From positions 1 through 24,642 of IMG/VR virus record IMGVR_UViG_3300009537_000164: a DNA stretch of 24,642 nucleotides; one strand, given 5' to 3'. The position numbers were made by a program, and so were the translations under genes. This document shows positions 1,959-23,540 of this stretch, one piece after another. Source of the DNA: a virus. Each line of letters begins with the position of its first letter. The stretch's first letter is position 1. The notes under the pieces were generated by a model. That model saw only the letters and a list, made by a program, of their open reading frames with translations, did not search any database and had not been told where the DNA came from.

Positions 1959-3311
1959 CTAGATAATAAACTTCTGGGACGATTGCGGTATAGTATAAGT
2001 TATAACTAATTTCGGGCGTTCGCTGGCCGTGCCGTAATCCGAGGATCGGAAGTCCTGCTTATCATCGACCTCGGTATCCATCTTGATCAGGAAGCCGTTG
2101 TTGGTGAAGGCGGGCACGCTGCCGCACATCGCTTCCAACTCGGCATAATCAGCGCCGGCCCCATCCAGGGTGAACTGTTTTTCTCCGGCAGCTTCTGTGG
2201 CGGTGAAGGAACGGCTGCCGATCTCGGTGGCTTCGCGGTCGGTGGTGGTGTTGTTGGCCCCGGCGGTACCCCAGTTACTTATGCCGTCATAAGTGTTCCA
2301 GGTCGCGCCTGCCTCCGTCCAGGCTTGCAGTAAACGGTAGACGCGGGCGGTGCGGGTGTTGTCGGAAAATTCGCCGTACTGCCAGATCGAAAGTACACCC
2401 GATGAAATAATGGATCCGCTGGATATTGCAGAAAGATCGAACTGGATGAGCGTGCGGCGGGTGTTGTTGGGGGCGGCATTCTTCTCCCCGACATCAAAAC
2501 CGCTCGTGGTGCCGTAGTTGGTCGTGGCGCTGTTGCTGTCGATCTGGGCATCCTTCCCTGCGGCGGCATCGGGCTGTTCGGAATAGGTCGGGTCGATCGT
2601 TACAGGGAAGGCCGCCGATGATAACCAGTCAACCGGGACCCCCCAATAAATCTTAAACTTTTTGGGGCTTGGTAAATCAACGACGCGGATTAATATTTGT
2701 ATCTCGTCGCCGTTGGCGTCCCATGCGTGACCGGGGTTTATTGTTGTCCCGTCGCCCAATATATGCCCCCCCGTTAGATCGCCGGGCGCTGGCGGCGTTC
2801 CAAAAATATCTAAATGTTCCGTTTCAATTACGAATCGATCGCCTGACAAACCCGGCGGTAAGTTATCTATTATTAATTGCTCTTTGACGCCGTTCTCTTT
2901 GTTTATTTGCTCAAATTTATATATTCCGTGCTCCCTGGTTAACCGGTCCCCGTTTGCAATCGCCCCCGAAAACCCTACAAACTCGGTATAACTATCGCCG
3001 TTAATGTCTAATACGCCGGCGCCCCTTGATATATACCTGGATACCCGCCCCTTAAATCCGACTTCGCCGGTTGATTGTAACAAACCCGGCGCCCCCGCCC
3101 CGGCGTAAACATTATTAACGACGCTTAACCCGGTATCTATCGGCGCCATGACCCGCCCCCCGGTATCATAATAGGCCGGCTGAACCTGTAAAACGGTTAC
3201 GCGATGGCGCGGCCCGCCGTTATTAAAGGTTATACCATGCCTGGTCATGCCAACAATAGGTTTACTCGATAACGGACTGGACGCCATAAAATCGTTATGC
3301 CAGTTAACCAT
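1959..3311 (-). CDS. Tail/host-contact protein with C-terminal DNRLRE domain
   Basis: The 450-residue product has two parts. Residues 1-240 are phage-like, strand-rich and end in the FPVTIDPTYS motif that commonly precedes DNRLRE modules. Residues about 245-446 form a DNRLRE-type jelly-roll domain: DAQIDSNSATTNYGT, LIQFDLSAI, WTEAGATWN, and RPKLVITYT at the end are characteristic. Such domains occur on secreted and cell-surface proteins, often carbohydrate-associated, so a role in host adhesion is likely. The DNA for the domain (about 1995-2610) prefers AAC, GGC, CTG, ATC and AAG, while neighbouring phage genes prefer AAT, TTA, ATA and AAA. That points to recent acquisition. The start overlaps the upstream stop as TAATG; ATG at residue 9 is an alternative. 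Confidence 0.8.
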   Translation of the reverse strand: MVNWHNDFMASSPLSSKPIVGMTRHGITFNNGGPRHRVTVLQVQPAYYDTGGRVMAPIDTGLSVVNNVYAGAGAPGLLQSTGEVGFKGRVSRYISRGAGVLDINGDSYTEFVGFSGAIANGDRLTREHGIYKFEQINKENGVKEQLIIDNLPPGLSGDRFVIETEHLDIFGTPPAPGDLTGGHILGDGTTINPGHAWDANGDEIQILIRVVDLPSPKKFKIYWGVPVDWLSSAAFPVTIDPTYSEQPDAAAGKDAQIDSNSATTNYGTTSGFDVGEKNAAPNNTRRTLIQFDLSAISSGSIISSGVLSIWQYGEFSDNTRTARVYRLLQAWTEAGATWNTYDGISNWGTAGANNTTTDREATEIGSRSFTATEAAGEKQFTLDGAGADYAELEAMCGSVPAFTNNGFLIKMDTEVDDKQDFRSSDYGTASERPKLVITYTIPQSSQKFII

Positions 3312-3799
3312 TATGACCCCGCCACTTGTATACCAACCGTTACGATCAACCCTACGGCCGCCGTACTGTGTACCGCGTCAATATCAATCCTTAATAAATC
3401 GCCGGTCGCCACGTCGTCGTTTGACGTGTTAATAACCGCCGCGGTTGCCGCCGTATCCGTAGACGTTTCGCCGCTGTCAATGGTCATTTTTGTACTTAAA
3501 ACATCTACGGCATCGGTAACGTTATGTATTTGTATATCTTCGGTGCCGGTCGTGCCCGCCGTCAAAACGTCGGCCCGTACTTCGACAATATTGCCCGACG
3601 TTATCCCGGCCGGTATAATAAAATAGGCCGCCCCGTCGCCGGCGGCGTTATTTGTCGCGTTGGCAAAACTGAAAACCTCAATTTGATAATATCGTATCGT
3701 TTCGCGCAATGCCACAAGATTATCTATAATATCCGTATTATAGATCGACGACGTTATTAACGTCCCCGTGGTTCTTTGGGTTGGGTTGGTCCATGCCAT
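3311..3799 (-). CDS. Tail fibre / virion structural protein
   Basis: The product has 162 residues. The N-terminus (WTNPTQRTTGTLITSSIYNT followed by DIIDNLVAL) resembles the attachment motif at the start of many phage tail-fibre or receptor-binding proteins, in which a Trp/Thr-rich strand leads into a short helix with a conserved Asn-Leu pair. The rest is Thr, Ala, Val and Asp rich and looks like repeated beta strands without cysteine. It sits between the tail-tip proteins and the DNRLRE protein, so a small fibre or fibre adaptor is the best reading. The start has AGGAG upstream at normal spacing. Confidence 0.65.
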   Translation of the reverse strand: MAWTNPTQRTTGTLITSSIYNTDIIDNLVALRETIRYYQIEVFSFANATNNAAGDGAAYFIIPAGITSGNIVEVRADVLTAGTTGTEDIQIHNVTDAVDVLSTKMTIDSGETSTDTAATAAVINTSNDDVATGDLLRIDIDAVHSTAAVGLIVTVGIQVAGS

Positions 3800-8870: not shown

Positions 8871-9638
8871 CTATCCTCTAACAAATCCTAAAACAAATGT
8901 TACTGTGGTCGCCGTATTAAGGGATAGTTGCCAGCGCGTATACCGCTTAACTGCCGCTGTGGTCCCTAGGGCGACAACCCCGGATAACGGGGCGCCGCTG
9001 GCGTCGATCTCGCCTGAACTTACCAGGTCGCCAAAACTGCCGTCCAAATTAGTCGCGGCGTCCTGTATTTTTAATGTACATGTTCCATCCCCGGCCGTGA
9101 CATGATACATCATATAACCGCCCGCCGCGGTTGCTGCGCCGGTATGGTCCAACCCGGTCGCCGTATTTGCGGCCGTTTCGGCCGCTAGTGCATGTTCTAA
9201 ATACCCCCACGGGCGGGCGTATAATAGCGTACTGGCGGTGACTGAATAGGGGCCAAAAGGTATACTAGCGCCAACCAAGGACCCCCCGGCCGGCTCGGCC
9301 TTGTAGGCGCCCTGTAACGCCTCACACATAAACGCCGGATCGCCCTCGGTCGGGGCAGACTGTATACCCAATGCAACCAAAACGTCACGTTTTACCCCGG
9401 CCCCGCTGGCGGCTGCATGTAACCCAATTGTTGCCGTATTATCAAATACGCCGTTTAGTGGTCCCGGTGATACCATGCCATGACCGGCATAAGCACCCGT
9501 TACGGGGTCGCCATAGGTAACGCCGCTTTCCTCGTCAAAAGTTATATCTAGCGGCCCAATGCTGCGGGTATAACCCGATAGATCATACCCGTCCATATAA
9601 ACCCGGGCGTATTTCGATACCGTTCTACCCGTCGCCAT
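8871..9638 (-). CDS. Major tail tube protein candidate
   Basis: This 255-residue protein is Gly/Ala/Thr-rich, almost free of Lys and Cys, and predicted to be mostly beta strand. It lies after the tail-terminator candidate and before the chaperones, the standard place for the major tail protein. Its start MATGRTVSKYARVYMDGYDL contains the strand-turn pattern common in tube proteins. The start ATG overlaps the last codons of the upstream gene by 14 bases and has a strong ribosome binding site (GGAGGAT), in line with high expression. The C-terminal half (about 140-255) may be an added surface domain because the smaller paralogue lacks it. Confidence 0.7.
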   Translation of the reverse strand: MATGRTVSKYARVYMDGYDLSGYTRSIGPLDITFDEESGVTYGDPVTGAYAGHGMVSPGPLNGVFDNTATIGLHAAASGAGVKRDVLVALGIQSAPTEGDPAFMCEALQGAYKAEPAGGSLVGASIPFGPYSVTASTLLYARPWGYLEHALAAETAANTATGLDHTGAATAAGGYMMYHVTAGDGTCTLKIQDAATNLDGSFGDLVSSGEIDASGAPLSGVVALGTTAAVKRYTRWQLSLNTATTVTFVLGFVRG

Positions 9639-10921: not shown

Positions 10922-11308
10922 TCACCTTCCGGGTTCGTAGTAAACAATAACGCCGCCGGTTTTTGCGTTGCCGCCGCTGGCGATAGTTAATTTAAGTAAC
11001 CCGTCGATAATCGGCTTGACGTGTACCTCTTGGGTCCCGTTATAGGTTTGCGCCGCCCCAGCTTCGTCGTGTGCAACGTGACGGGGGTATAACGTCTGAT
11101 CCGTGTTAAAATTCGTGGCCGTCAATAGGGTCTTGTTTACGCCGCTATTCGTGTTTACAACCGTAATGGTTGCATCGACGCCGTCGGCATAGTCGCCATC
11201 AATCAACTCGACGGCAACCAACCGACCCAAAACGGCCCGGTCCGCCGTGTCGTTCCCGTCCCCGCTTTCGTCGGTGGTTACATTGATACGCAAACTGTCT
11301 AATCTCAT
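10922..11308 (-). CDS. Small beta-rich virion protein, unknown
   Basis: The 128-residue product is dominated by alternating hydrophobic and Thr/Asn/Asp residues, suggesting a beta sandwich, and has no Cys or Trp. It ends GGVIVYYEPGR. The gene sits between a perfect hairpin at 11348-11377 and the connector gene. Candidates are a capsid decoration protein or head fibre base; I do not recognise a family. A loose ribosome binding site (AGGCAGGA) precedes the start at 11308. Confidence 0.6.
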   Translation of the reverse strand: MRLDSLRINVTTDESGDGNDTADRAVLGRLVAVELIDGDYADGVDATITVVNTNSGVNKTLLTATNFNTDQTLYPRHVAHDEAGAAQTYNGTQEVHVKPIIDGLLKLTIASGGNAKTGGVIVYYEPGR

Positions 11309-11347
11309 TTTTTTATCCTGCCTTTATACATCCATCAAAAAGCCGTC

Positions 11348-11377
11348 AAATACCCCGGACCAAGGTCCGGGGTATTT
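11348..11377. terminator. Perfect intergenic hairpin
   Basis: Arms 11348-11361 and 11364-11377 are fully complementary over 14 base pairs with a two-base spacer (AA), including a CCCCGGACC core. On the plus strand the right arm runs into TATTTGTTTT; on the minus strand it is followed by TATTTGACGGCTTTTTG. It lies between two late genes on the minus strand. It could be a partial terminator that lowers expression of downstream genes, or an RNA-processing or stability element after the highly expressed capsid genes. Confidence 0.6.
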
Positions 11378-11392
11378 GTTTTACCTTGATCT

Positions 11393-12670: not shown

Positions 12671-14179
12671 TTACAGGCTAACGGCGTAAGAAATGGCGCT
12701 GGCCTCGGTGTCGCGGTAGACCATACCGACCCGCATTAATGCGGTAATTTCGGTAGTGTCGGCGCGAGGCACCCGTTCGGTTTCGATAGTAAGGCGACGC
12801 TTAAACCCAAATCGCCACTGGTCCCAACGGACGGCCAAGATTGCGCCGTAAAGGTTGTTAGCGGCTGTGTCCAGGTCAATTTTCCCTGCGCTGTCTGCTT
12901 TTAGTCCATAGGTGCTATCAGTGTTCCAACGGTGCATATTGGCGGTATGGTGGACCTTATACCCATAAATACCGGTTAAGTTACCTTTCTCAATCGTGGG
13001 GGATACGAAAACGTCGCGGGTTTTAACCTCGGGGATCTCCAAGGCCGCCCAATGGGTCCACGCGTCAAGGATAAAGCCGACCTTGTCTTTTTGCAGGGCG
13101 TTTTTACCTGCCAACCCCATAAGTTTTAGCGTTTCGGTAAAATCTGCAGACGTCAAACCGCCCGCGCTTCGACTGTTGGCCGTGTTGGTTACTAGGGCCA
13201 ATTTTCTAAACCCGTTTAAAACAAGGAAATAGTCTGTTGACGCTGGCGTTCCGGCAATGTCGTTAATGTTGGTGCTTGCGCCGGTTTCGGTATCGCCGTC
13301 AATGACTAAACTTTCCAGGACCTCGCGGCCCTCTTGTACTATACTGTCAATCAACTCCCCGGCCCATGGGATAACGCTATCCTCGACTAATTCGCCGGTG
13401 AAACTTGTACCGGCCCCCATTTTGGCCACGGTTAACGATTGGTTGGTCGTTGCGTTTTTCGACGTGGTGACGGTGTGGGTTGTTGGTCCTGGGTTACTAT
13501 CCTGCGCTGTTGCCTGTGCAACCTTGTAAAAGGTTGGTGGCGTACTCGCGACGGGAATGGTAACACTCTCGGAACCCTGGGGAACCTCAACGGTCGGGAT
13601 CATCCCGACAACGGGGGTGTCTTGGGCGATATTGTCCCACAACTCGGTCGAATATGTAACGCCTACCCATTCATCGCCGTAACTGGCTAAGGTGGATTGA
13701 TTAAGCTCGTTTGCCTTAAATGGCATCCCGGCCGCTTTCATGGCTGCTTTAGTACGACTATAACGCTTGTCTTTGTCCAGGTCCTCGGCGATACGAACGG
13801 CTAAAGCCTTGTACGCGTCCTCGGTGGCCTTTCTACCTTTACCTGACCGTCCGGCGCTTTCTAGTACGCCGATACCGAACGCCAGGGCGGCGGTCGGTTC
13901 GTTGTCATATTTCCATAGATTGGCAAATTTCGCAACGTTGGGAGCACCTTCCCCGCTAGATAGGCGGTTTGCCGCCTTTTCGGCCTCGGCTAATTTTTCC
14001 TCGACTTCCTTGATCTTGGCGTCGGCCGCCTCGGTAGCTGACTTAACGGCAGCGTCAATCTCGGCCTGTTTATCTTCGGCCGCTTTTTTTGCGGCGGCCT
14101 GTTCGGCTAAAAGCTCTTGTCGGGCTTTATCCTTTTCGGCCTCTAATTGGGCCTCTGTTAATTCCATAATTTCGGGCAT
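12671..14179 (-). CDS. Nested product: scaffold plus major capsid protein from an internal start
   Basis: An in-frame ATG (residue 213 of the full fusion) starts MPEIMELTEAQLEAEKDKAR, exactly where the coiled-coil scaffold begins. It has GAGG eight bases upstream, as good a ribosome binding site as the phage uses elsewhere. The 502-residue product would provide capsid subunits in excess over protease, as phage lambda does with the nested C and Nu3 genes. The internal start is seen in the sequence; its use is inferred. Confidence 0.55.
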   Translation of the reverse strand: MPEIMELTEAQLEAEKDKARQELLAEQAAAKKAAEDKQAEIDAAVKSATEAADAKIKEVEEKLAEAEKAANRLSSGEGAPNVAKFANLWKYDNEPTAALAFGIGVLESAGRSGKGRKATEDAYKALAVRIAEDLDKDKRYSRTKAAMKAAGMPFKANELNQSTLASYGDEWVGVTYSTELWDNIAQDTPVVGMIPTVEVPQGSESVTIPVASTPPTFYKVAQATAQDSNPGPTTHTVTTSKNATTNQSLTVAKMGAGTSFTGELVEDSVIPWAGELIDSIVQEGREVLESLVIDGDTETGASTNINDIAGTPASTDYFLVLNGFRKLALVTNTANSRSAGGLTSADFTETLKLMGLAGKNALQKDKVGFILDAWTHWAALEIPEVKTRDVFVSPTIEKGNLTGIYGYKVHHTANMHRWNTDSTYGLKADSAGKIDLDTAANNLYGAILAVRWDQWRFGFKRRLTIETERVPRADTTEITALMRVGMVYRDTEASAISYAVSL

Positions 14180-14815
14180 TTTATTTACCTCTTTGTAAAT
14201 TGTTTTAGCTTTTTGTTTTGTTTTGATTAATGCGCCTCCGTTTTCGTCCTGCGCTATAACGATAGCGCCTCCTGGACTGTCGGGGGCGTTTATATCCTCT
14301 GGTAATTCTAAACCGGCGATTTTGTAAATCGCCTTCAGCGCAGGAATTGCCACGGCATAACTGTTTGCTGGCTGTCGATCCTCGTCTACATCAAATATAG
14401 ATAACTCGGCTACGGGCCATTCACTTATAAACCCGTCAAGCCGTTTGCGTACCAAGTGGGTTATTGACCCACTGGACGCGAACGCTAGTTTTTTCTTGGC
14501 GGCTTCCCACACCCGGCGGGCCAACGATTTCGTTTTGTCCAATACGACCCGGTACCATATGCCGGCCTCGTCGACCCATCGATCAACGGCTTTTCCGATA
14601 TATTCAGGGGTCCCCGCTGGCTGACCCCCGGCCGTGTATCCGTGATAATACACGGCCGGGGGGAGGCCAAACTTATCTGGATGTGTATTCGTTTCTTTTG
14701 CGAAATATTCGCCGTCTGCATCCCGCCCATTAATAGGGCCTCCGAACGGGACCCCCAATACCTCTAAAACCCACTCCCCCTTATTATTCTTGTATGCTTT
14801 TTGTATCCTTGCCAT
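12671..14815 (-). CDS. Fused prohead protease, scaffold and major capsid protein (HK97 type)
   Basis: One frame of 714 residues joins three functions that are usually two or three genes. Residues 1-185 look like a prohead protease of the HK97 S78 type: VYYHGY (55-60, candidate catalytic His58), LAFASSGSITHLV (110-122, candidate nucleophile Ser114/115) and WPVAELSIFDVDED (133-146). Residues 219-285 form a long charged coiled coil, the delta-like scaffold. Residues about 290-714 are an HK97-fold capsid protein, including VTIPVAS and the late strand YGYKVHHTANM. The gene is preceded by its own strong promoter and a terminator-like leader. An internal start at 14179 could supply extra scaffold-capsid subunits without protease. 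Confidence 0.85.
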   Translation of the reverse strand: MARIQKAYKNNKGEWVLEVLGVPFGGPINGRDADGEYFAKETNTHPDKFGLPPAVYYHGYTAGGQPAGTPEYIGKAVDRWVDEAGIWYRVVLDKTKSLARRVWEAAKKKLAFASSGSITHLVRKRLDGFISEWPVAELSIFDVDEDRQPANSYAVAIPALKAIYKIAGLELPEDINAPDSPGGAIVIAQDENGGALIKTKQKAKTIYKEVNKMPEIMELTEAQLEAEKDKARQELLAEQAAAKKAAEDKQAEIDAAVKSATEAADAKIKEVEEKLAEAEKAANRLSSGEGAPNVAKFANLWKYDNEPTAALAFGIGVLESAGRSGKGRKATEDAYKALAVRIAEDLDKDKRYSRTKAAMKAAGMPFKANELNQSTLASYGDEWVGVTYSTELWDNIAQDTPVVGMIPTVEVPQGSESVTIPVASTPPTFYKVAQATAQDSNPGPTTHTVTTSKNATTNQSLTVAKMGAGTSFTGELVEDSVIPWAGELIDSIVQEGREVLESLVIDGDTETGASTNINDIAGTPASTDYFLVLNGFRKLALVTNTANSRSAGGLTSADFTETLKLMGLAGKNALQKDKVGFILDAWTHWAALEIPEVKTRDVFVSPTIEKGNLTGIYGYKVHHTANMHRWNTDSTYGLKADSAGKIDLDTAANNLYGAILAVRWDQWRFGFKRRLTIETERVPRADTTEITALMRVGMVYRDTEASAISYAVSL

Positions 14816-14835
14816 ATTCTCGGACCTTTTAACAA

Positions 14836-14873
14836 TAAAACCCGGCGGGGCGATTCTACCGGCCCGCCGGGTT
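14836..14873 (-). terminator. Terminator-like hairpin in the leader of the capsid gene
   Basis: On the minus strand AACCCGGCGGG (left arm, main stem bases 14863-14871) pairs with CCCGCCGGGTT (14841-14849), followed by TTTTATT. The hairpin lies downstream of a strong promoter and upstream of the capsid start, so read from that promoter it acts as an attenuator. It may equally end transcripts arriving from the portal and neck genes. Its left arm overlaps the 27-base block shared with the leader at 20.4 kb. Confidence 0.6.
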
Positions 14874-14937: not shown

Positions 14938-15408
14938 TTATTTAACGAATTTATCAAGCGCCCGTTGTACCCAGGCGTCAAGCTGTTTTTCTAACAATGC
15001 CCGTTTTTCATTGGCAACGTCCAACCAGGTACGCCAACCAACCCGCTTAATGTGGGCGGGCTGTTTGTTGGATTCGTTCCCGGCCAACTTGTCGGCGTAG
15101 CTGGCCGCATTAACGGCTGTCGTTTTGTGGGTCGTTTGCTCAACCGTCCAACTTGTGCCGTATTTCTCACTATTCCCATAATTCGCCCCGCTGGCGCTCT
15201 GATACCCTACCCCTCTTTTATAGTATGGCGGCGGCGGCTGGGATCCCGGGGGGGCTGCCGGGTATTCTTTGATTCCCCTTGTTTTCAATATTTCATCCAT
15301 ACCCTCACGCCCCGCGGCTTTTGTTGCCGCCTCCAATTCCTCGGGGATCTGATCATTTGTTTTAATAAGATCGTCCAATCCCTCGACGGATATTTTTAAA
15401 TCAAGCAT
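14938..15408 (-). CDS. HK97 gp10-like neck/tail-joining protein
   Basis: The product has 156 residues from ATG 15408, which overlaps the upstream stop as TAATG; the frame is open further upstream but inside the preceding gene. Seen are an N-terminal helix (LKISVEGLDDLIKTNDQIPE), a proline-rich loop (YPAAPPGSQPPPPYYKRGV), the strand with NAASYADKLAGNE, and PAHIKRVGWRTW followed by a C-terminal helix. These match the gp10-like family, where the Tyr-Ala-x-x-Val/Leu-x-Gly strand and the Gly-Trp segment are typical. It usually lies after the connector gene; here it precedes the capsid gene, a local rearrangement. Confidence 0.75.
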   Translation of the reverse strand: MLDLKISVEGLDDLIKTNDQIPEELEAATKAAGREGMDEILKTRGIKEYPAAPPGSQPPPPYYKRGVGYQSASGANYGNSEKYGTSWTVEQTTHKTTAVNAASYADKLAGNESNKQPAHIKRVGWRTWLDVANEKRALLEKQLDAWVQRALDKFVK

Positions 15409-16337
15409 TAAGTACCCCCATCCGCAAACCCGCCCGGTTTGTCCAGTTGTTGCAGTTGTATATCGTCCAGTATATCGGTCCTGCTTTGCGTCCAACATCT
15501 ACAATTAACATGTGCCGGGGGATTAAAATACCTTTTACCATCCCCGCCGGTGAACTCGGCGTTTATCTTTACGCTTTTACCGTTTAGCGGGCCGCAAATC
15601 GGACAAACCAAATCATCCTGATTGGCAAACCATGTTTTAATAACCGTTACGCCTTCGTGTTCCTGGGCCAACGCTTCCCCGGCCAATTGCTGACCTTGTG
15701 CAAACATGCGAGTTAATTCTGTTACCGCTATACGTTCCAATCTATAATCTTCAAACACCCCGCTTAACCCGAACATAACATCATTAACCGTTACGGCCCT
15801 ATTCCCAACAAAATTGAACAACGTATTTCTTAAGGCTTGCTGCGTGGTTTGGTCCAATAGGTCAAACCAACCTTGGGCGCCCTCGTCGCCAGTGATATAA
15901 GTATTTAACCATTTTATCGCCGCGGTTCTCGGTCCCGCGGCGTCAATCCCAATCGGGACCGACGACAAAAAAAGATCTGTGCCTAAATTTAAACCCTCTA
16001 GCAGAACGGACCCGACCTTTTTATCTATATTTGGATCATCCCAAATGCTGCCGGGTAAATTTTCTATGATTTCCTCGACCCGGTCGCCGTCGGCCTTGGT
16101 ATATCGGGCCTTTCGATCCGGGTATTTAAACTCCATATACTTCCTTAAACGGCGGCGCTGGCCATTAAAGCGCTGCCTTAATCTGCGCTGCAACTTATCT
16201 TCGAGCGCGTGTTTCTCTTTGCGTCCGGGTTCCCTGGGATCTCGGCGCTTATACTCGGCCGGTATATAAATCCCCCTGGCCTTTAACCAGTCGGCTGTCT
16301 TGTCGATCATGACGTTAATATCAACGTCGTTAGTCAT
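15408..16337 (-). CDS. Minor head protein, Mu gpF / SPP1 gp7 family
   Basis: The 309-residue protein has a basic helical N-terminal part (35-75, RREPGRK-like and very Arg-rich) and the typical C-terminal domain. ITVTELTRMFAQGQ-like helix residues (about 220-235) are followed by VIKTWFANQDDLVCPICGPL (two Cys of the metal or turn motif) and, near the end, NPPAHVNCRCW, the family signature. These proteins associate with the portal and enter the procapsid early. The start overlaps the portal stop as ATGA, so the two are translationally coupled. Confidence 0.85.
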   Translation of the reverse strand: MTNDVDINVMIDKTADWLKARGIYIPAEYKRRDPREPGRKEKHALEDKLQRRLRQRFNGQRRRLRKYMEFKYPDRKARYTKADGDRVEEIIENLPGSIWDDPNIDKKVGSVLLEGLNLGTDLFLSSVPIGIDAAGPRTAAIKWLNTYITGDEGAQGWFDLLDQTTQQALRNTLFNFVGNRAVTVNDVMFGLSGVFEDYRLERIAVTELTRMFAQGQQLAGEALAQEHEGVTVIKTWFANQDDLVCPICGPLNGKSVKINAEFTGGDGKRYFNPPAHVNCRCWTQSRTDILDDIQLQQLDKPGGFADGGT

Positions 16338-17830
16338 TTTTTGCCCCTTTGTTGGTCAATAAGTGACAATAACGCGTCGCGTATTTCGGTAATTTGGGGG
16401 TCAAATATTAATGGGGATTTTCTCCCCACCCCCCCCCACAGGGACATTAACTCATCTTGCTCGACGGCCTCAAGGTATTTAAATCTAAATTCGTCCAACT
16501 TTTCGGCCTTGCCCTCGGTAACGCGCTTGCGGGCATAACGGTTAAACTGTTCTCTTTCCTTGGCCTTTAGGTCGCCGCCTGGCGCCTCAAACGTTTCTAT
16601 ACTCGGGATTTCCGTCCCGTTTTGGGACGCCGCACCCTTTGCCAATTCTAAAACCGTCATTTTGTCCCGTTCGTCGCCTAATGGCGCGTCCCCGTATTGT
16701 TTGGCCCGGACTTCCTCGATTGTATGGGTCCGCTCATACGCCTTTTGTTCCTCCAATTTAAGGTTACGATCCGATTGACGAACGTCCTCAAATCGGCCGA
16801 CAAGATTTTTGCCATATAGGGGTAAAAGATCGTTTGTTATCTTTTCGGCAAACGCTGTTAAAATTGGGTAAACGGATAACTCATAAAAAGCGGCCCGGCC
16901 GCTTTTGCTGTTGGCCTCGGTAGAATTGACCGCTAACCAACTATTTAACCCCGGCGCCAACCATGTAAATATTTCCTCCTTATTCATGTTACGACCCTCA
17001 ATAAATTGCATTTCGGCCTGGGTCAATCCGTTTTGGACCCACTCCACCCCGCCCTTACCGGCCCCCCTGATTAACATTAATTCCCGGGCCTTGGCGCGGC
17101 GTTCGATCTCATCTCGTATTTTATCCCATTCTGTTTGTTCGACCATGTCGGCAAAAGCAAAAAAGCCGGGTATTTTACCGCCCTCGCCTTGAAAGTATTG
17201 GGTATTATGCTGCTGCATTGCCAGATCGCCGACCGCTACGGTTGAAATTTGGCTTATTTGTGATAATCCAACAAATGAACTGTTTGGGTTAGTCCTCTTA
17301 AGGTGCATTATCATTTGAGGCGGTATAATTATAGGTTCCCCCCCGTCGCCCGGATTGTACGCGTACCCCTTAACATATAACTTGCCGTCGGGTATTGGTT
17401 CGATCATATATGACGGTATGGTCCACATTTCAACCGGCGCCCCTGTTTGACTTGGTGTATTAAGCCAGGTATAGGCATTGCCGGTTAATTTTAAAAATGA
17501 TATTTGATTACTCAAATACTCAAACCGGCTTTCTAGCGGGTTTGGTTTACCTAATAGGACCTCGAACGGATGGGCCTCGACTCCTTCCTCCCCTTCGCCA
17601 TCCTTGGCAAATACGTTAAACTCGGTCGGCGCTGCCGTTTCGGCAACTGTGTTAATTGCTATAGCAACCCAAGTTAATTTTGTGTACAAATCGGCCTGAT
17701 TTCTCGCCGTGTACAACGACGGCATATTGTATTCACCCCCCGACGCCATGCGGGCAAATAGGGCCGGGGATTGGGTTACTAGTGTCTTTGCGGCCTGGGC
17801 GGTTTGTCTAAATCTGTCAAAAAATCCCAT
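16334..17830 (-). CDS. Portal protein, HK97 type
   Basis: The 498-residue protein forms the dodecameric DNA channel. The N-terminus (MGFFDRFRQTAQAAKTLV) and the early helix YTKLTWVAIAINTVAETAA (about 48-66) are typical of HK97-like portals, as are HPFEVLLGKPNP (84-95), FEYLSNQISFLKLTGNAYTW (about 102-121) and the conserved central region with a Gly-Ala-Gly loop and Asn-Glu-Ala-Asn-like motif (VNSTEANSKSGR). It lies between terminase and minor head protein. GAGGT precedes the start. A run of nine G on the coding strand (plus 16429-16437) encodes WGGV near the C-terminus without disturbing the frame. Confidence 0.88.
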   Translation of the reverse strand: MGFFDRFRQTAQAAKTLVTQSPALFARMASGGEYNMPSLYTARNQADLYTKLTWVAIAINTVAETAAPTEFNVFAKDGEGEEGVEAHPFEVLLGKPNPLESRFEYLSNQISFLKLTGNAYTWLNTPSQTGAPVEMWTIPSYMIEPIPDGKLYVKGYAYNPGDGGEPIIIPPQMIMHLKRTNPNSSFVGLSQISQISTVAVGDLAMQQHNTQYFQGEGGKIPGFFAFADMVEQTEWDKIRDEIERRAKARELMLIRGAGKGGVEWVQNGLTQAEMQFIEGRNMNKEEIFTWLAPGLNSWLAVNSTEANSKSGRAAFYELSVYPILTAFAEKITNDLLPLYGKNLVGRFEDVRQSDRNLKLEEQKAYERTHTIEEVRAKQYGDAPLGDERDKMTVLELAKGAASQNGTEIPSIETFEAPGGDLKAKEREQFNRYARKRVTEGKAEKLDEFRFKYLEAVEQDELMSLWGGVGRKSPLIFDPQITEIRDALLSLIDQQRGKK

Positions 17831-17851: not shown

Positions 17852-19435
17852 TTAATTATTACTAATAAACGATATTAACCCCGACGCCGCGGGGCGGTTC
17901 CTCAAATCGTGCCATGCCCAATAGGCCGCATCGGCCAGGTCCAGGGGCTTGTTTGGGAAACGCATTAATGCCTTTTCTAGGGCGCCATGCGTCCCCCGGA
18001 CATGCACGATTGTCCCCCGTTCGTAGTCGGCTAACATTTGCAACCCTCGGTGCACCTTGGATCCATGCCCTGCACCCGCTTTGTCATCTTTGAACCCCGG
18101 GATAATGTCGGCGGGTCTATAATCTGGTTGACCCGGCTGGCCTATATGTGTGCTAATCAATAATCCCTCTTTTATTAAACCCTGAATAACGCGGGCGTAT
18201 ACGCTTCGCCAGGTATCCCCGCCTTGGTCCGTTTCTACCCCAACCGAAACGGCGCCCAATTCATGCGCCTTTAATATCGCTCGCCTTAATATATCCTCCG
18301 GGGTCGTTATTTGCTCAAAGCTGTATAACCGGTATATTTTGCCGTTGGGGCCTAATCCGTCGGCCTGGATGGCCATACAGTCGCTTTTATCCGTTGATGT
18401 AACGGCCGGATCCACCCACACGGCAACACGCGTTAATGGCGGCACATCGTTAAAATCAATATGATTAAATTCGATATGGTCATAAAAGCCGCCGGTCCGA
18501 TTAACTTCATGCTGCGCCTCCCTTAAAAATGCCGTTGGTCCCATTGTGTTAATTTGTTCTTCTACAACGCTTAACCCCTGTCCTTGCGGCCAGGTTGGCG
18601 TTCCACCAGTAACAGTATAATGCCCGGCGGCGTCCTGTTTATAGGTCAACCCGTCAACAGCAACGTATGGCCCCGATACCTTGCGCCTTAATAGGAACTC
18701 GGCCCGGCCGTCTACCAGTTGGGACATAACCCCATCAGGGACTATTAGATTTTGAATAAATAAAACGATAACATCCGGGGACCCGGCCGGTATAATGTTC
18801 TGGGTTATAATCTCAATTTTCTTCTCGGTCGTTTTTGGGCTATCGTGGCGGCTGTCAATGTCATCTAAAATTATAATATCCGGGCGGGCCTCAACCTGCT
18901 TAACCCCCCGCGTGGCCTTATCTAACCCCATGGCGTCTATCGTGTACCCCTGGGACGTTACCAACCTTGCCCGGCGCCAACCTTTAGACGCGCCATACTT
19001 CCCGACCGCCCGGTCGGATAGTCCGGGGTAATAATATTTTACCTCTTTGCTTTCTAGCAAATCGGCGATATTTTGTACTGACTTGTCGCTATTCTCCTGG
19101 GTTTCCCGAACATACCAACAATAACGCCGCCCGGCATGGGCGCCAAACTCCACGGCGGCCGCCTCGGCCCCGGTCGATTTCCCCCCGCCCCTCGGCCAAA
19201 TTGCCATAGAAGCGGGGACCACCTCGGGGTCCCTGTCGATTATTGATTTTACCCACGTCCAAAACTCGACATGATAAACGCTAAACCCCTTCGAGAATAA
19301 GCGGGGATAAACCAGGGTTAACCCGGTCAAATAATCGGGGGGCAACGATCCCCCGGCTCTGGAATTTATAACCCGCTTAAGTTTATCTAATTCCAGCGAC
19401 TTCAACGCCGGCGGCTGCAAATAATTCTTTAGCAA
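17852..19435 (-). CDS. Terminase large subunit
   Basis: The 527-residue packaging motor has a Walker A motif WPRGGGKST (80-88), a Walker B motif IIILDDID (187-194) and an RNase-H-like nuclease domain with acidic positions in VAVWVDPA (338-344), VGVETDQGG (399-406) and DLADAAYWAW near the C-terminus. It translocates DNA into the prohead and cuts concatemers. No ATG occurs before the conserved region: the longest form begins with TTG at 19435 and overlaps the small terminase gene by 53 bases, with further TTG codons downstream. The exact start is therefore uncertain. Coupling with the small subunit gene is likely. Confidence 0.9.
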   Translation of the reverse strand: MLKNYLQPPALKSLELDKLKRVINSRAGGSLPPDYLTGLTLVYPRLFSKGFSVYHVEFWTWVKSIIDRDPEVVPASMAIWPRGGGKSTGAEAAAVEFGAHAGRRYCWYVRETQENSDKSVQNIADLLESKEVKYYYPGLSDRAVGKYGASKGWRRARLVTSQGYTIDAMGLDKATRGVKQVEARPDIIILDDIDSRHDSPKTTEKKIEIITQNIIPAGSPDVIVLFIQNLIVPDGVMSQLVDGRAEFLLRRKVSGPYVAVDGLTYKQDAAGHYTVTGGTPTWPQGQGLSVVEEQINTMGPTAFLREAQHEVNRTGGFYDHIEFNHIDFNDVPPLTRVAVWVDPAVTSTDKSDCMAIQADGLGPNGKIYRLYSFEQITTPEDILRRAILKAHELGAVSVGVETDQGGDTWRSVYARVIQGLIKEGLLISTHIGQPGQPDYRPADIIPGFKDDKAGAGHGSKVHRGLQMLADYERGTIVHVRGTHGALEKALMRFPNKPLDLADAAYWAWHDLRNRPAASGLISFISNN

Positions 19436-19889
19436 GATTAACGCCTAATTCTTTAATAGCATCTTTGTATATTAATTCTCCGTTTTGGATCAACTCCACA
19501 ACCTGCGCCCTGTACATATCTATAGCGCCCGTTTCCAGCATGGCAGCCTCTAGGCGGGTAACGCGGCCCCAACGCTCGGGGAAACGCCGTTCCAAAATAA
19601 AGGCCGCTGCCCGCCATTGGGAGGGATCCAACTGTGCGGCCTGGGCGATAGTTGCGGCTAGTAAATATTCCCCCTCGCCCTCTGCTTGCTTTAAAGCCTC
19701 TAAAAACTCTAAAAATCTAGGATCTCCGTCCTCGGCTTTCTTTTTCCAATTGTAAAATGTCGCCGCGGACACTCCGGCAGCGTTTGCCGCCTGTTCGTAT
19801 GTCAACCCAAACCGTACGCCCTTAGCGATAACATCTATCGCCGTGTTAGTTAATTTTGATCTTCGTCCCCCCCTGTTTTTTTTGGTCAT
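19383..19889 (-). CDS. Terminase small subunit
   Basis: The 168-residue protein recognises packaging sites and hands DNA to the large subunit. Its N-terminus is basic (MTKKNRGGRRSKL) and carries a helix-turn-helix of the homeodomain-like type: YEQAANAAGVSAATFYNWKK (35-54). The rest is helical, with WRAAAFILERRFPERWG (93-109) typical of small terminases, and a C-terminal helical tail for oligomerisation. The gene directly precedes and overlaps the large subunit. GAAGGG precedes the ATG at 19889. Confidence 0.85.
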   Translation of the reverse strand: MTKKNRGGRRSKLTNTAIDVIAKGVRFGLTYEQAANAAGVSAATFYNWKKKAEDGDPRFLEFLEALKQAEGEGEYLLAATIAQAAQLDPSQWRAAAFILERRFPERWGRVTRLEAAMLETGAIDMYRAQVVELIQNGELIYKDAIKELGVNLAKELFAAAGVEVAGIR

Positions 19890-19965: not shown

Positions 19966-20313
19966 TTACGGGGATAATTTCAGATTTCTAAACACCTCTT
20001 TAGCCAATGCCTTATAAACCGCAATAACAAAGGCCACGGCCTGCAATATAACAAAAACGACGCCGTTTATATAATCCTGCAATAATAAGAGGGATCCGGC
20101 CGGGTCCGCAGCGTCCCAACCTGGGGGGCTAAAGGCCGCATAATCCGGGGCCGACCAGAACAAACCAAACACGGCCGCAACGACCAGGGACAACCAGGTT
20201 AAAAAACGCCTCGATAGGGGCTTATTCAATCGGGCCGCCAACAACTTAACAACCTGAACAATCACAACGGCCACAAACGACAAAACGCTTAACTGCTGTA
20301 AACTCAAACTCAT
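19966..20313 (-). CDS. Three-helix membrane protein, holin-like
   Basis: The 115-residue protein has three predicted membrane segments (about 8-26, 38-54 and 83-101) separated by a basic loop (RLNKPLSRR) and a Pro/Asp-rich loop (SAPDYAAFSPPGWD), with a charged C-terminal tail. Size and topology match class I holins. It is unusual in lying before the terminase genes, 18 kb from the endolysin, as the first gene behind a strong regulated promoter. It may be a holin, an antiholin to the XhlA-like protein, or a membrane protein for another step. AGGAG precedes the start. Confidence 0.65.
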   Translation of the reverse strand: MSLSLQQLSVLSFVAVVIVQVVKLLAARLNKPLSRRFLTWLSLVVAAVFGLFWSAPDYAAFSPPGWDAADPAGSLLLLQDYINGVVFVILQAVAFVIAVYKALAKEVFRNLKLSP

Positions 20314-20334: not shown

Positions 20335-20362
20335 TTAAAAAAAATAGGCGCTTTTTAGCGCC
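20335..20362 (-). terminator. Intrinsic terminator in the leader of the holin-like gene
   Basis: On the minus strand GGCGCT and AGCGCC pair around a four-base A loop, followed by TATTTTTTTT. This is a textbook intrinsic terminator, yet it lies between the promoter at 20427-20455 and the start codon at 20313, so most transcripts should end there unless antitermination occurs. The ribosome binding site (AGGAG) lies just after the U-run. Confidence 0.75.
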
Positions 20363-20388
20363 CCGTCGGGTAGATCCGGTCTTGGGGT
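20362..20388 (-). promoter_or_regulatory. Conserved leader block, copy 2
   Basis: This segment matches 14863-14889 at 23 of 27 bases (minus-strand core ACCCCAAGACCGGAT) and again lies between promoter and terminator. The differences are four single substitutions and no gaps. Confidence 0.6.
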
Positions 20389-20426: not shown

Positions 20427-20455
20427 ATTATAAGGGTTTTTTATCCCCGTTGCAA
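20427..20455 (-). promoter_or_regulatory. Late promoter upstream of the holin-like gene and terminase
   Basis: On the minus strand TTGCAA and TATAAT stand 17 bases apart. The spacer shares GATAAAAAACCCT with the capsid-gene promoter. It also contains CGGGGAT next to the -35 box, which matches a half-site of the replication iterons (ATCCCCGTTG is shared with the iteron at 23109-23123 and its flank). The start would be near 20420, giving a leader of about 107 bases. This is probably the first promoter of the late operon. Confidence 0.75.
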
Positions 20456-20562: not shown

Positions 20563-20571
20563 TGTTATACT
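20563..20571 (+). promoter_or_regulatory. Extended -10 element facing module A from the left
   Basis: TGTTATACT on the plus strand faces into module A, opposite to the minus-strand element at 20710-20718. No convincing -35 box is present. Together the two would transcribe the hairpins convergently. Confidence 0.3.
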
Positions 20572-20585
20572 TAATTTCTCCTCCT

Positions 20586-20703
20586 AAAATGGGCGCTAAT
20601 TCTGCCGGCTGAAACCGGCAGGGTTGGCGCCCTAATTCTTTAATCCAAACGGCCCCGTATGCTGATCGGGGGCCGTTTGGTCCAAATAAAGGAATTTTTC
20701 ACC
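20586..20703 (-). ncRNA. Putative small RNA, module A (two hairpins, terminator)
   Basis: An extended -10 element TGTTATAAT (20718-20710) would start a transcript near 20703. It carries the 14-base box AAAAATTCCTTTAT (20699-20686), a 12-bp perfect hairpin (CCAAACGGCCCC 645-656 with 669-680 of the 20 kb block), an A/T-rich linker, and a second hairpin with outer stem GGGCGC (20591-20596 with 20627-20632) and inner stem CTGCCGG (20602-20608 with 20615-20621), followed by ATTTTAGGAGG. The layout is shared with module B although the stem sequences differ, which is the mark of conserved RNA structure. No -35 box is evident. Confidence 0.45.
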
Positions 20704-20721
20704 ATTAAAATTATAACACCG

Positions 20722-20750
20722 TTTACGTTTCGGCGTTTTGGTGCTATAAT
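20722..20750 (+). promoter_or_regulatory. Plus-strand promoter facing module B
   Basis: TTTACG and TATAAT are 17 bases apart, and TGC precedes the -10 box as an extended element. It faces into module B and is back to back with the minus-strand promoter of module A, so the two share a 28-base region. Confidence 0.4.
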
Positions 20751-20763
20751 GTAATTACCTCCT

Positions 20764-20876
20764 AAAAACGGCCGCCGGCCTTGGTTCCCGCCAGGGTCGG
20801 CGGCCCTATCTTTTAAAAGGTTAGCCGCCCGGCTTACTGGTCCAGGCGGCTAACCGATCATAAAGGAATTTTTACC
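20764..20876 (-). ncRNA. Putative small RNA, module B (two hairpins, terminator)
   Basis: The -10 element TGCTATAAT (20891-20883) with TTAACG 18 bases upstream would start a transcript near 20876. It contains the box AAAAATTCCTTTAT (20873-20860), an 11-bp perfect hairpin (20819-20829 with 20845-20855), a short A/T linker, and a 15-16 bp hairpin (20770-20805) followed by GTTTTTAGGAGG, a good intrinsic terminator. Predicted length is about 113 nt. Box identity with module A is exact over 14 and 10 bases, while the hairpin bases are different. Confidence 0.5.
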
Positions 20877-20908
20877 GACTAAATTATAGCATTGTTTTTA
20901 ATCTTGCG

Positions 20909-21091
20909 TTAACCCTCCTTGTCCTTCGGGGCGGCCTTTGACTGGACTACCTCAATAAATTTTAAAATACCGGCGCGTATTATTATTGTTATCGAATAAT
21001 TACCGGTCGTTTTTCTCAACTCCCTAGATATAGCTAGGACCTCTTTTATATCGCTGTCTTTTATGGGTTGGGCGTCGTTTTTATCTCTCAT
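20909..21091 (-). CDS. Small basic-acidic protein, unknown
   Basis: From ATG 21091 the product has 60 residues; GAGGGG lies upstream and the start overlaps the previous stop as TAATG. A longer frame to 21139 lies inside the upstream gene. The protein has a charged N-terminus, a helix (SDIKEVLAISRELRKTTG), a strand-like stretch YSITIIIRAGILKFIEVV and a Lys-rich tail. The strand-helix pattern could suit a small DNA-binding ribbon-helix-helix-like protein, but no motif is decisive. It precedes the RNA module region. Confidence 0.6.
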   Translation of the reverse strand: MRDKNDAQPIKDSDIKEVLAISRELRKTTGNYSITIIIRAGILKFIEVVQSKAAPKDKEG

Positions 21092-21900
21092 TATATTAAA
21101 CCCCTCTTTTTTAATTCCTTGGTCGCCCTTTTGGGCCAATCACGGGACGCCCTCGGCTTAATCTGGTATTTTGGGTCCTCGGCAATTTGACGGGGCGACA
21201 TTTTGGCTACACGCCTTAATTCCGTAACTGGTAATTGCCTAAAATCCGTATAGGCATTTTGCGGCACGTTCCCGCCTACTGTGTAATTGTTGCCGGTTCC
21301 TGCCGGCATGTTGCCGGCATGTTGCCGCCCCTCTATTTGTTGTATAACTTGCCGATATGTTGCCCTGTAGCCAATAACCGCCGACGCTGGCAAACCCAAT
21401 AAAACCAATAGCGCCTGGACGATAATAATAACCAGGGCCAAAACAACCGCGCCGGTCCTGGCGCCACCATCTATCAAAACGTCAAGCGAAACGGCAAACT
21501 GCAAGGCGACATTTAAGGAAATTACCGTCAATAAATACGCCCCAAAAATCCAATATACCGGCCTTTCGGGTATCTGGTCCCGGCTGGCCCGGTTGCTTTT
21601 GTTGTGCATTATTACGGTTATCAATGTCCCCGCGCTGGCAAGGCCAACGCACTCAATAGCAACCGCTACGACAGCGGCGCTTAATGTGCTGAACCCCATT
21701 TCGGGGCCGGTTAGATGCTGATAGGATAGCGTAGCTGGGGCCAACGGTGCCGCCCACGGGCCAACGTCTAAAGCCAGGGCAAACAACAACCGGCCAAAAC
21801 GATCGACGACCTCTATTAATTTGTCGAACCCATAAAAAACGGCGTCGAAAATCCAATCTATTAATAATGTTAATATATTCCTTCGGGGCTGCTGATCCAT
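21091..21900 (-). CDS. Four-helix membrane protein with basic C-terminal domain
   Basis: The 269-residue protein has about four membrane segments (38-58, 71-97, 114-138, 150-173), a Gly/Asn-rich linker (195-215) and a basic C-terminal domain (222-269) with a helix-turn-helix-like pattern: VTELRRVAKMSPRQIAED, then KPRASRDWPKRATKELKKRG. That layout recalls membrane-anchored proteins carrying a DNA-binding tail, as in some plasmid-transfer and phage replication factors. Linking replication or transcription complexes to the membrane is a possible role. AAAGGA precedes the start. The linker DNA contains a short tandem repeat (21301-21327). The family is not recognised. Confidence 0.65.
   Translation of the reverse strand: MDQQPRRNILTLLIDWIFDAVFYGFDKLIEVVDRFGRLLFALALDVGPWAAPLAPATLSYQHLTGPEMGFSTLSAAVVAVAIECVGLASAGTLITVIMHNKSNRASRDQIPERPVYWIFGAYLLTVISLNVALQFAVSLDVLIDGGARTGAVVLALVIIIVQALLVLLGLPASAVIGYRATYRQVIQQIEGRQHAGNMPAGTGNNYTVGGNVPQNAYTDFRQLPVTELRRVAKMSPRQIAEDPKYQIKPRASRDWPKRATKELKKRGLI
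21301..21327. repeat. Short tandem repeat in the linker of the membrane protein gene
   Basis: TGCCGGCATGT occurs twice in tandem and is followed by a partial third TGCCG. It encodes part of the Gly/Asn/Met-rich linker. The length could vary by slippage. Confidence 0.6.
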
Positions 21901-22566: not shown

Positions 22567-22821
22567 TCATTTTCTACGTCTTATGGCCTCCAACCAATTA
22601 ATACAAAATAGCGCCGTTTGCTCGACGGCAAAATAAACATTGCCGCCGCCGTTGATCGCAAACAATACCGATTGAAATATATTATTAAATAATATACCCG
22701 CTATTTCTCCATCCTTCATGTCATCGGGAACCCATTCCCCCGCGCATATTTTTATATCCCTGTATATTTCCGGACTAATACGTTCCGGGGGGCGGTCAAT
22801 AGGATTAATCGGGAATGTCAT
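22567..22821 (-). CDS. Small protein of unknown function
   Basis: The 84-residue product starts MTFPINPIDRPPERISPEIY and ends with a helix ALFCINWLEAIRRRK. A middle region is Gly/Asn-rich (INGGGNVYFAVEQ). The start overlaps the stop of the initiator gene as ATGA, so the two are coupled. It could be a helicase-loader partner by position (lambda P-like place), but it is far too short to be P itself. Confidence 0.6.
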   Translation of the reverse strand: MTFPINPIDRPPERISPEIYRDIKICAGEWVPDDMKDGEIAGILFNNIFQSVLFAINGGGNVYFAVEQTALFCINWLEAIRRRK

Positions 22822-23540
22822 TTGATAATAAACTCAGATAGGTCGCCGCCGGTATACTTGTCCTGTTCGTCGTCGCCAGGTAATGCCGGGGCGTCGTCCT
22901 GATCCCTGATTCTAGTTATAAGCAAACCAACCTTAACTCCCGGGTTTTTACTGCGGTCTAGGTCGTATTGCCTGGCGTGGGCCTTGGCATAATCCGGGGT
23001 AACGTGGGGCATGGCGGCCAATTTGTTTAGCATTGCCTTACCTATACCCCGGCCCTTAAGTATATCAATAATAACCGGGTTTGGTTGGGGGATTTTATCC
23101 CCATTAGCGGGGATAAAATCCCCGTTGTGGAGACTACTATTACTATCTTTGACTTTGTTTAAAGGATTAATTAATTTAGTAGTAGTAGTAGGGGCCATTA
23201 TGGGGATTAAATCCCCGTTATGGCCCAGTTGGGGGATTTTATCCCCATTAGCGGGGATTAAATCCCCATAATCGGGGATAACCTCTGCCGCCCAACTTAA
23301 AAACAATTGTCCAGAGGATGTCAGGAACCAACCGGCCCGGCCGCCATAGTCGCCAACCAGTCCAACGGCCATTAATTCCTTAAGGTATTTTGATACGGGC
23401 TTACGATCCATTTCCAACAACTCGGCCAACTCAACCGGGCCAGTTGGGCGCTTAAGTAACCCCATGGCAAACAATACAATAATTGATTTTTTTATGGATC
23501 TCAAAAACTCAATTGTGTGTTCTGGTACAGTAATTTTCAT
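22818..23540 (-). CDS. Replication initiator, lambda O-like, with origin inside the gene
   Basis: The 240-residue protein has an N-terminal winged-helix domain (about 15-82: SIIVLFAMGLLKRPTGPVEL, then KPVSKYLKELMAVGLV and GWFLTSSG). A middle region (91-153) repeats GD-x-IP five times because the DNA contains palindromic iterons. The C-terminal helical domain (about 155-215) may bind helicase or its loader. Initiators with iterons inside their own gene are known from lambda O and relatives. AAAGGA precedes the start. The protein would bind its iterons, melt the A/T-rich DNA between them, and load the replisome. No helicase or polymerase is encoded in the window. Confidence 0.7.
   Translation of the reverse strand: MKITVPEHTIEFLRSIKKSIIVLFAMGLLKRPTGPVELAELLEMDRKPVSKYLKELMAVGLVGDYGGRAGWFLTSSGQLFLSWAAEVIPDYGDLIPANGDKIPQLGHNGDLIPIMAPTTTTKLINPLNKVKDSNSSLHNGDFIPANGDKIPQPNPVIIDILKGRGIGKAMLNKLAAMPHVTPDYAKAHARQYDLDRSKNPGVKVGLLITRIRDQDDAPALPGDDEQDKYTGGDLSEFIIK
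23088..23279. repeat. Iterons of a probable replication origin
   Basis: Five copies of GGGGAT-NNN-ATCCCC lie at 23088-23102, 23109-23123, 23202-23216, 23232-23246 and 23253-23267, and a half-site GGGGAT at 23274-23279. Within each cluster, neighbours are 21 bases apart (two helical turns) or 30. The middle three bases are A/T only. Between the clusters lies an A/T-rich stretch (about 23131-23190) with TTAATTAATTTAG, suited to unwinding. All five copies keep GGG GAT and ATC CCC codons exactly. Confidence 0.75.

Follow-up and report, generated by a model that had tools for sequence, protein, structure and literature searches.

What are the two hairpin-rich units that lie just ahead of the late genes of this uncultured phage, and which of their strands is the RNA? 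The sequence examined is one virus record, IMGVR_UViG_3300009537_000164, and its 24,642 bases are called the window here. The minus strand carries all plausible genes of the window, and transcription order begins with a few small upstream genes of unassigned function, followed by a 76-residue open reading frame (ORF, 20909-21139), a gap of 595 nt and the gene for a 115-residue membrane protein (19966-20313) that opens the late operon (Table 1). Both units fall inside this gap, immediately 5' of the late genes, which bears out their earlier placing between upstream and late genes. The nearest viral terminases are 58-61% identical to that of the window, and the terminase relatives in cellular genomes belong to an Anaerolineae MAG and to Rubrobacter (46-48% identity); a search for relatives of the neighbouring 269-residue protein found none.

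The units (20563-20718 and 20742-20891) share a plan in which an extended -10 element, a 10-nt box, two hairpins and a 14-nt box are followed by an inward-facing extended -10. An earlier note, made from the letters alone, had described this plan, and every element that it named is in place: the inward-facing elements occur in both units and match TGNTATAMT, the spacing given as about 175 nt measures 174-179 nt, and the boxes are the same in both units. The hairpins too are present, with stem lengths that had to be corrected from 11-16 bp to 18 and 16 bp for hairpin 1 and 12 and 11 bp for hairpin 2, counted on the plus strand.

Table 1. Positions of the units, their elements and the surrounding genes (window coordinates unless a related locus is named).
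Feature	Position	Strand	Remark
Extended -10 TGTTATACT, sRNA unit 1	20563..20571	+	no clear -35
Predicted sRNA 1, about 120 nt, CUCCUCCUAAAA...UUUUU	20578..20699	+	fold z -8.3; 5' box unpaired
5' box CCTCCTAAAA, unit 1	20580..20589	+	candidate anti-Shine-Dalgarno seed; identical in unit 2
Hairpin 1, unit 1	20591..20632	+	18 bp, 3 G-U on plus
Hairpin 2, unit 1	20645..20680	+	12 bp
3' box ATAAAGGAATTTTT, unit 1	20686..20699	+	outer stem 3' half and U-tract (putative terminator)
Inward extended -10 TGTTATAAT, unit 1	20710..20718	-
Hairpin 1' and UUUU, possible terminator, unit 1	20586..20632	-	A-C mismatches in stem
Promoter TTTACG-N17-TATAAT with TG, unit 2	20722..20750	+	10/12 plus TG
Extended -10 TGCTATAAT, unit 2	20742-20750	+	within promoter 20722..20750
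Predicted sRNA 2, 117 nt, ACCUCCUAAAA...UUUUU	20757..20873	+	fold z -8.7; 5' box unpaired
5' box CCTCCTAAAA, unit 2	20758..20767	+
Hairpin 1, unit 2	20770..20805	+	16 bp, 3 G-U on plus
Hairpin 2, unit 2	20819..20855	+	11 bp plus inner pairs
3' box ATAAAGGAATTTTT, unit 2	20860..20873	+
Inward promoter TTAACG-N18-TATAAT with TG, unit 2	20883..20912	-	10/12 plus TG
Extended -10 TGCTATAAT, unit 2	20891-20883	-	within promoter 20883..20912
Hairpin 1' and UUUUU, possible terminator, unit 2	20763..20805	-	-25.9 kcal/mol
Candidate late-operon promoter P0, TTGCAA-N17-TATAAT	20427..20455	-
Intrinsic terminator T0 (GGGCGCTAAAAAGCGCCT ATTTTTTTT)	20338..20363	-	AGGAG and ATG of the 19966..20313 gene follow
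115-aa membrane protein, first late-operon gene	19966..20313	-	holin-like by hydrophobicity
Terminase small subunit	19383-19889	-	PHROG E 1.2e-27
Terminase large subunit	17852-19435	-
Portal	16334-17830	-
Mu gpF-like protein	15408-16337	-
Major head protein	12671-14815	-
Tail proteins, then GH25 endolysin	443-1369 (endolysin)	-
Genes with UAGGAG Shine-Dalgarno	19966-20313 (first late gene), 3311-3799, 1369-1941	-
Promoter-terminator cassettes of relatives	L009:9472-9576, L010:279-385, L019:2729-2830	sense

These hairpin units stand well above chance. Among all 120-nt stretches of the record, on either strand, they rank first and second in stability, with fold z-scores against dinucleotide shuffles of -8.3 (unit 1) and -8.7 (unit 2) on the plus strand and of -6.1 and -4.3 on the minus strand. 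Four of the six occurrences of TGNTATAMT in 24.6 kb lie within the units; none of 200 whole-window shuffles placed four inside 330 nt, and none of 2000 local shuffles yielded four. No further copy of either box is found in the window, even when one or two mismatches are allowed. Pair counts are based on the alignment of unit 1 with unit 2 (A3), in which the boxes are identical at 24/24 positions, the stems at 29/48 (60%) and the remaining positions at 19/41. All 24 aligned stem pairs are nevertheless standard in both units, with seven double changes and five one-sided changes via G-U, and pairing falls to 25-54% when the partner strand is slid by one to three columns as a control. The retention of every pair despite 60% stem identity, in a comparison of two sequences, upholds the suggestion that selection acts on structure over sequence; because the two are paralogues and no homologue was found beyond them, the covariation is that of a single pair of sequences.

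The units had been read as small RNAs of about 115 nt from the minus strand; the size has stood, the strand has not, since the stem evidence favours plus. Within hairpin 1 and the outer stem, the pairs that are not Watson-Crick comprise eight G-U pairs on plus (six in the hairpin-1 stems, three per unit, and one in each outer stem) and none on minus, which has A-C mismatches instead, and the one-sided changes, in the plus reading, all run from C-G to U-G or from A-U to G-U. In the outer stem of the plus RNA the linker (UUCUUU or UCUUUUA) pairs with AAAGGA of the 3' box, with UUUUU following; the stem is weak (7-8 pairs plus hairpin 2), and together with the U-tract it is a plausible terminator in the modelled fold. 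In both units the 5' box falls at the predicted plus +1, and in the ensemble it stays unpaired. On the minus strand, hairpin 1 is indeed followed by the U-run described earlier (UUUU in unit 1, UUUUU in unit 2), and the complement of the 5' box, UUUUAGGAGG, sits past it; its conservation there is unexplained because no start codon follows the AGGAGG. Given the G-U bias, the outer stem with its UUUUU and the unpaired box at +1, the evidence favours the plus strand as the RNA kept by selection, contrary to the earlier reading.

Promoter elements are present in both directions. Those of unit 2 score 10/12 plus TG either way, and the unit 1 plus promoter lacks a -35; both minus extended -10s are perfect matches, to which unit 2 adds the -35 TTAACG at a spacer of 18. 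The traits of an sRNA gene are distributed as follows: a promoter of its own directly 5' of a short non-coding transcript, with a -35 only in unit 2, and a conserved unpaired seed with conserved structure in both. A coding role was ruled out, as no reading frame is common to both units: a 7-codon frame on the plus strand of unit 1 has no counterpart in unit 2, and an ATT-start frame 3' of unit 2 was rejected as a gene for want of one in unit 1. The minus AGGAGG was likewise rejected as a ribosome site, ATG, GTG and TTG all being absent at a usable distance. As far as sequence and covariation can tell, the units are two paralogous plus-strand elements with the anatomy of sRNA genes; they probably specify two regulatory RNAs.

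If so, the predicted 5' end, CCUCCUAAAA, which is unpaired, CU-rich and anti-Shine-Dalgarno, would be the part that meets a target. The complement of the seed core, UAGGAG, has five occurrences in the window, every one of them on minus; beyond the two that are complements of the boxes, each of the remaining three is a Shine-Dalgarno site (Table 1). At two of them (19966-20313 and 3311-3799) the seed outdoes the generic 16S 3' end (-8.6 vs -6.8); for many Shine-Dalgarno sites, pairing with ordinary 16S rRNA is at least as good. The seed would be expected to pair with Shine-Dalgarno sites, best where these read UAGGAG, in a match that is short (6 bp) and at three sites that may be coincidence.

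The place of the units becomes clearer when related phages are considered. In some 65 loci we scanned as much as 3 kb 5' of terminase for promoters that have a terminator no more than 260 nt away. In three relatives (L009, L010 and L019) an intrinsic terminator lies 65-76 nt downstream of a sigma-70 promoter just before terS/terL, and the sense-strand promoter is TTGACA-N16-TATAAT (12/12) in L009 and L010 and matches at 11/12 in L019. After the L019 terminator a Shine-Dalgarno sequence leads into a membrane protein gene, much as P0-T0 precedes the 115-residue gene in the window; homology between the two membrane proteins was sought and not detected, so that they are similar in kind only. None of these relatives shows the hairpin units. 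The units thus sit in a late-operon control region whose plan of promoter and terminator on the sense strand is found repeatedly in the group, and the comparison exposes a recurrent arrangement before terminase in this group of uncultured phages. The product of ORF 20909-21139 (60-76 residues), directly upstream, has a ribbon-helix-helix-like pattern and no Pfam match, and L009 carries a clear ribbon-helix-helix protein (9283-9492) at the equivalent position; a small protein of this type might regulate the late promoter.

A comparable layout is known from the late control region of phage lambda, pR'-tR', where a promoter with a terminator close behind precedes the late genes and 6S RNA and Q come into play. 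The pR' template used in one study has its tR' terminator some 116 bp further on (PMC4604602). The short-range promoter-terminator pair before late genes is shared by P0-T0 and the three relatives, so that this trait of a late promoter with a close sense terminator is present; unlike lambda, the window has no recognised Q gene (no Q-like antiterminator family from Pfam or PHROGs among the upstream genes scanned), and its hairpin units are duplicated and bear promoters on the opposite strand.

We tentatively propose the following mechanism, the best model at present and one that could well be right, in which tandem plus-strand sRNAs mask Shine-Dalgarno sites and minus transcription counters them. 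Each plus sRNA gene would use its own extended -10 to make an RNA of about 117 nt with the 5' seed CCUCCUAAAA, two hairpins and an outer-stem terminator, formed by pairing of linker UCUUU with box AAAGGA ahead of UUUUU. The seed would occupy UAGGAG Shine-Dalgarno sites, for example the one that serves the first late gene at a distance of 0.27 kb, and late translation would be held down. A minus promoter opposes each copy, where relatives keep their late promoter, and transcription from it would yield full-length antisense RNA as well as opposed polymerase traffic with collisions, so that the sRNAs might be shut off or removed at the start of the late phase. From such repression and shut-off it would follow that the units are the RNA part of a late-gene switch. 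Production of the RNAs, their target and their timing are what we infer here, and the part given to the minus promoters in shutting them off is suggested by analogy with relatives that do not themselves show the units. Phage late-gene control has mostly been described through proteins, such as Q-type antiterminators and activators. The fullest form of the proposal, a late switch made of RNA in which duplicated sRNAs that mimic the 16S 3' end sit on Shine-Dalgarno sites and are erased by antisense from face-to-face late promoters, is unlikely as a whole; if true, it would mean RNA-on-RNA timing of phage assembly and lysis.

The main alternative is that the minus strand matters and the two-hairpin leaders act as attenuators, each unit placing a late promoter, a leader and a terminator ahead of the late operon; a phage antiterminator would be needed to open the late genes, whether this is a protein or, as with HK022 put, the leader RNA in its own right, and the plus promoters would only tune the process by antisense RNA or collision. 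We do not dismiss the minus strand, because its extended -10s are perfect and conserved and the sense-strand cassettes of the relatives, with their consensus or near-consensus promoters and close terminators before terminase, occupy the same place; the UUUU(U) after hairpin 1' and the P0-T0 pair that the window has of its own point the same way. What makes this account doubtful is the poorer pairing on minus, where both hairpin 1 stems and the outer stem contain A-C mismatches, the unexplained conservation of CCTCC past the minus U-run, where AGGAGG has no start codon after it, and the failure of the Pfam and PHROG scans of the upstream genes to recognise an antiterminator. The relatives, moreover, manage with a single promoter-terminator pair.

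Less likely still are two readings that dispense with a regulatory RNA. U-runs after hairpins in both directions would suit bidirectional terminators or insulators between gene blocks, with promoter-like edges and no important RNA product, yet such elements need neither an identical 10-nt box at the predicted +1 nor four inward extended -10s, and insulation against plus transcription lacks an obvious client because all genes share one direction; we regard this as quite improbable. The unit ends also form inverted repeats, TGYTATAAT...ATTATARCA (12 nt at 92% in unit 2), whose variable base matches within each unit, as expected of a MITE-like palindromic mobile element with a hairpin body that reached two copies by insertion or duplication. 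The ends, however, fit the sigma-70 extended -10 consensus, a clean target site duplication was not found in the sequence, and no more copies appear in the window, the 85 related loci, 301 Chloroflexota genomes or the IMG/VR box patterns, which makes a mobile element very improbable.

For the preferred plus-strand sRNAs, known systems offer likenesses of layout. Rfam 15 gave zero matches at gathering score, in keeping with the earlier statement that no described family has this arrangement, and sub-threshold matches (E 1.1 to 7.9), such as NrrF and ctRNA, were taken as chance. Phage HK022 put antitermination RNA, of about 70 nt and read from early promoters, consists of two adjacent hairpins with no U-run after them; it resembles the units as two neighbouring hairpins in a nascent phage leader and differs in that the better-paired strand here is the antisense one. 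Plasmid sense-antisense pairs and type I toxin-antitoxin loci have opposed promoters and complementary structured RNAs, as the units do, whereas the units encode neither a replication gene nor a toxin peptide. The nearest described arrangement, which would work alike, is that of LhrC1-5 of Listeria monocytogenes, five multicopy sRNAs of 111-114 nt with two stem-loops, whose CU-rich single-stranded motif pairs with the Shine-Dalgarno sequence (PMC4132741); by description the units share paralogous copies, similar size, two hairpins and a CU-rich unpaired Shine-Dalgarno-complementary motif, a likeness of layout for which no homology is claimed. The LhrC genes are chromosomal, induced by stress and nearly identical to one another, while the units are diverged in their stems and lie in a phage; the LhrC motif is in loops and linker, here it is the RNA 5' end; and, unlike LhrC, each unit is opposed by an antisense promoter. 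Firmicutes sRNAs of the UCCC-motif type (RsaE, SprD, FsrA, RNAIII) also have a C-rich unpaired motif suited to masking Shine-Dalgarno sequences (PMC4132741); in the units the motif, CCUCCUAAAA, forms the very 5' terminus, and an Rfam match is absent. Literature searches on phage-encoded anti-Shine-Dalgarno sRNAs, put RNA and terminase-linked structured RNA found nothing in the library searched.

The family has two members, because the covarying homologues that the earlier note had envisaged in related phages were not found with covariance model R1 (85 loci, 48 whole records). Related sequences with both boxes flanking hairpins proved equally elusive: two-box DNA patterns in IMG/VR retrieved two stretches in an unrelated phage, judged chance, and 11 others without the fold. 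Patterns of the 3' box with the minus -10, and of the -10 with the 5' box, retrieved 3 and 23 IMG/VR stretches, in which the unit is absent. Near-identity searches among phages and plasmids gave no match, nor did R1 on 301 Chloroflexota genomes; empty answers of this kind carry little weight. On the window and the 85 loci, the sole outside match of R1 was in L023 (27.6 bits); it was rejected, as the better fold there belongs to the opposite (sense) strand, and AGGAGG and a gene ATG come after the hairpin. Hairpin, U-run, AGGAGG and ATG occur in series in the unrelated or distant phages L118, L108, L121 and L023 (6257-6379), and the minus strand of the window units resembles this series minus the ATG. 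Intergenic hairpins in L007 (z -9.5) were set aside for their different layout, a bidirectional terminator and a palindrome. These are two long palindromes in a gap of an Anaerolineae provirus (L007:8880-8990), the terminator around CGGCCGTCTC...GAGACGGCCG and the other being ACCTTAAAGTTTT...AACTTTAAGGT.

Other structured stretches occur in the window. Palindromic runs of a GGGGATTWWATCCCC-type repeat at 23192-23267, within a winged-helix-like gene of 240 residues (22818-23540), encode NGDLIPANGDKIP repeats, and their local fold is almost as stable as the hairpin units. Strong hairpins with U-runs (about -25 kcal/mol) lie between late genes at 14815-14872 and 11308-11386, one of them directly 5' of the major head gene Shine-Dalgarno. 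In the tail region, the protein encoded at 1959-3311 carries a Disaggregatase-related repeat/CBM96 domain and is possibly a binder of host-surface glycans.
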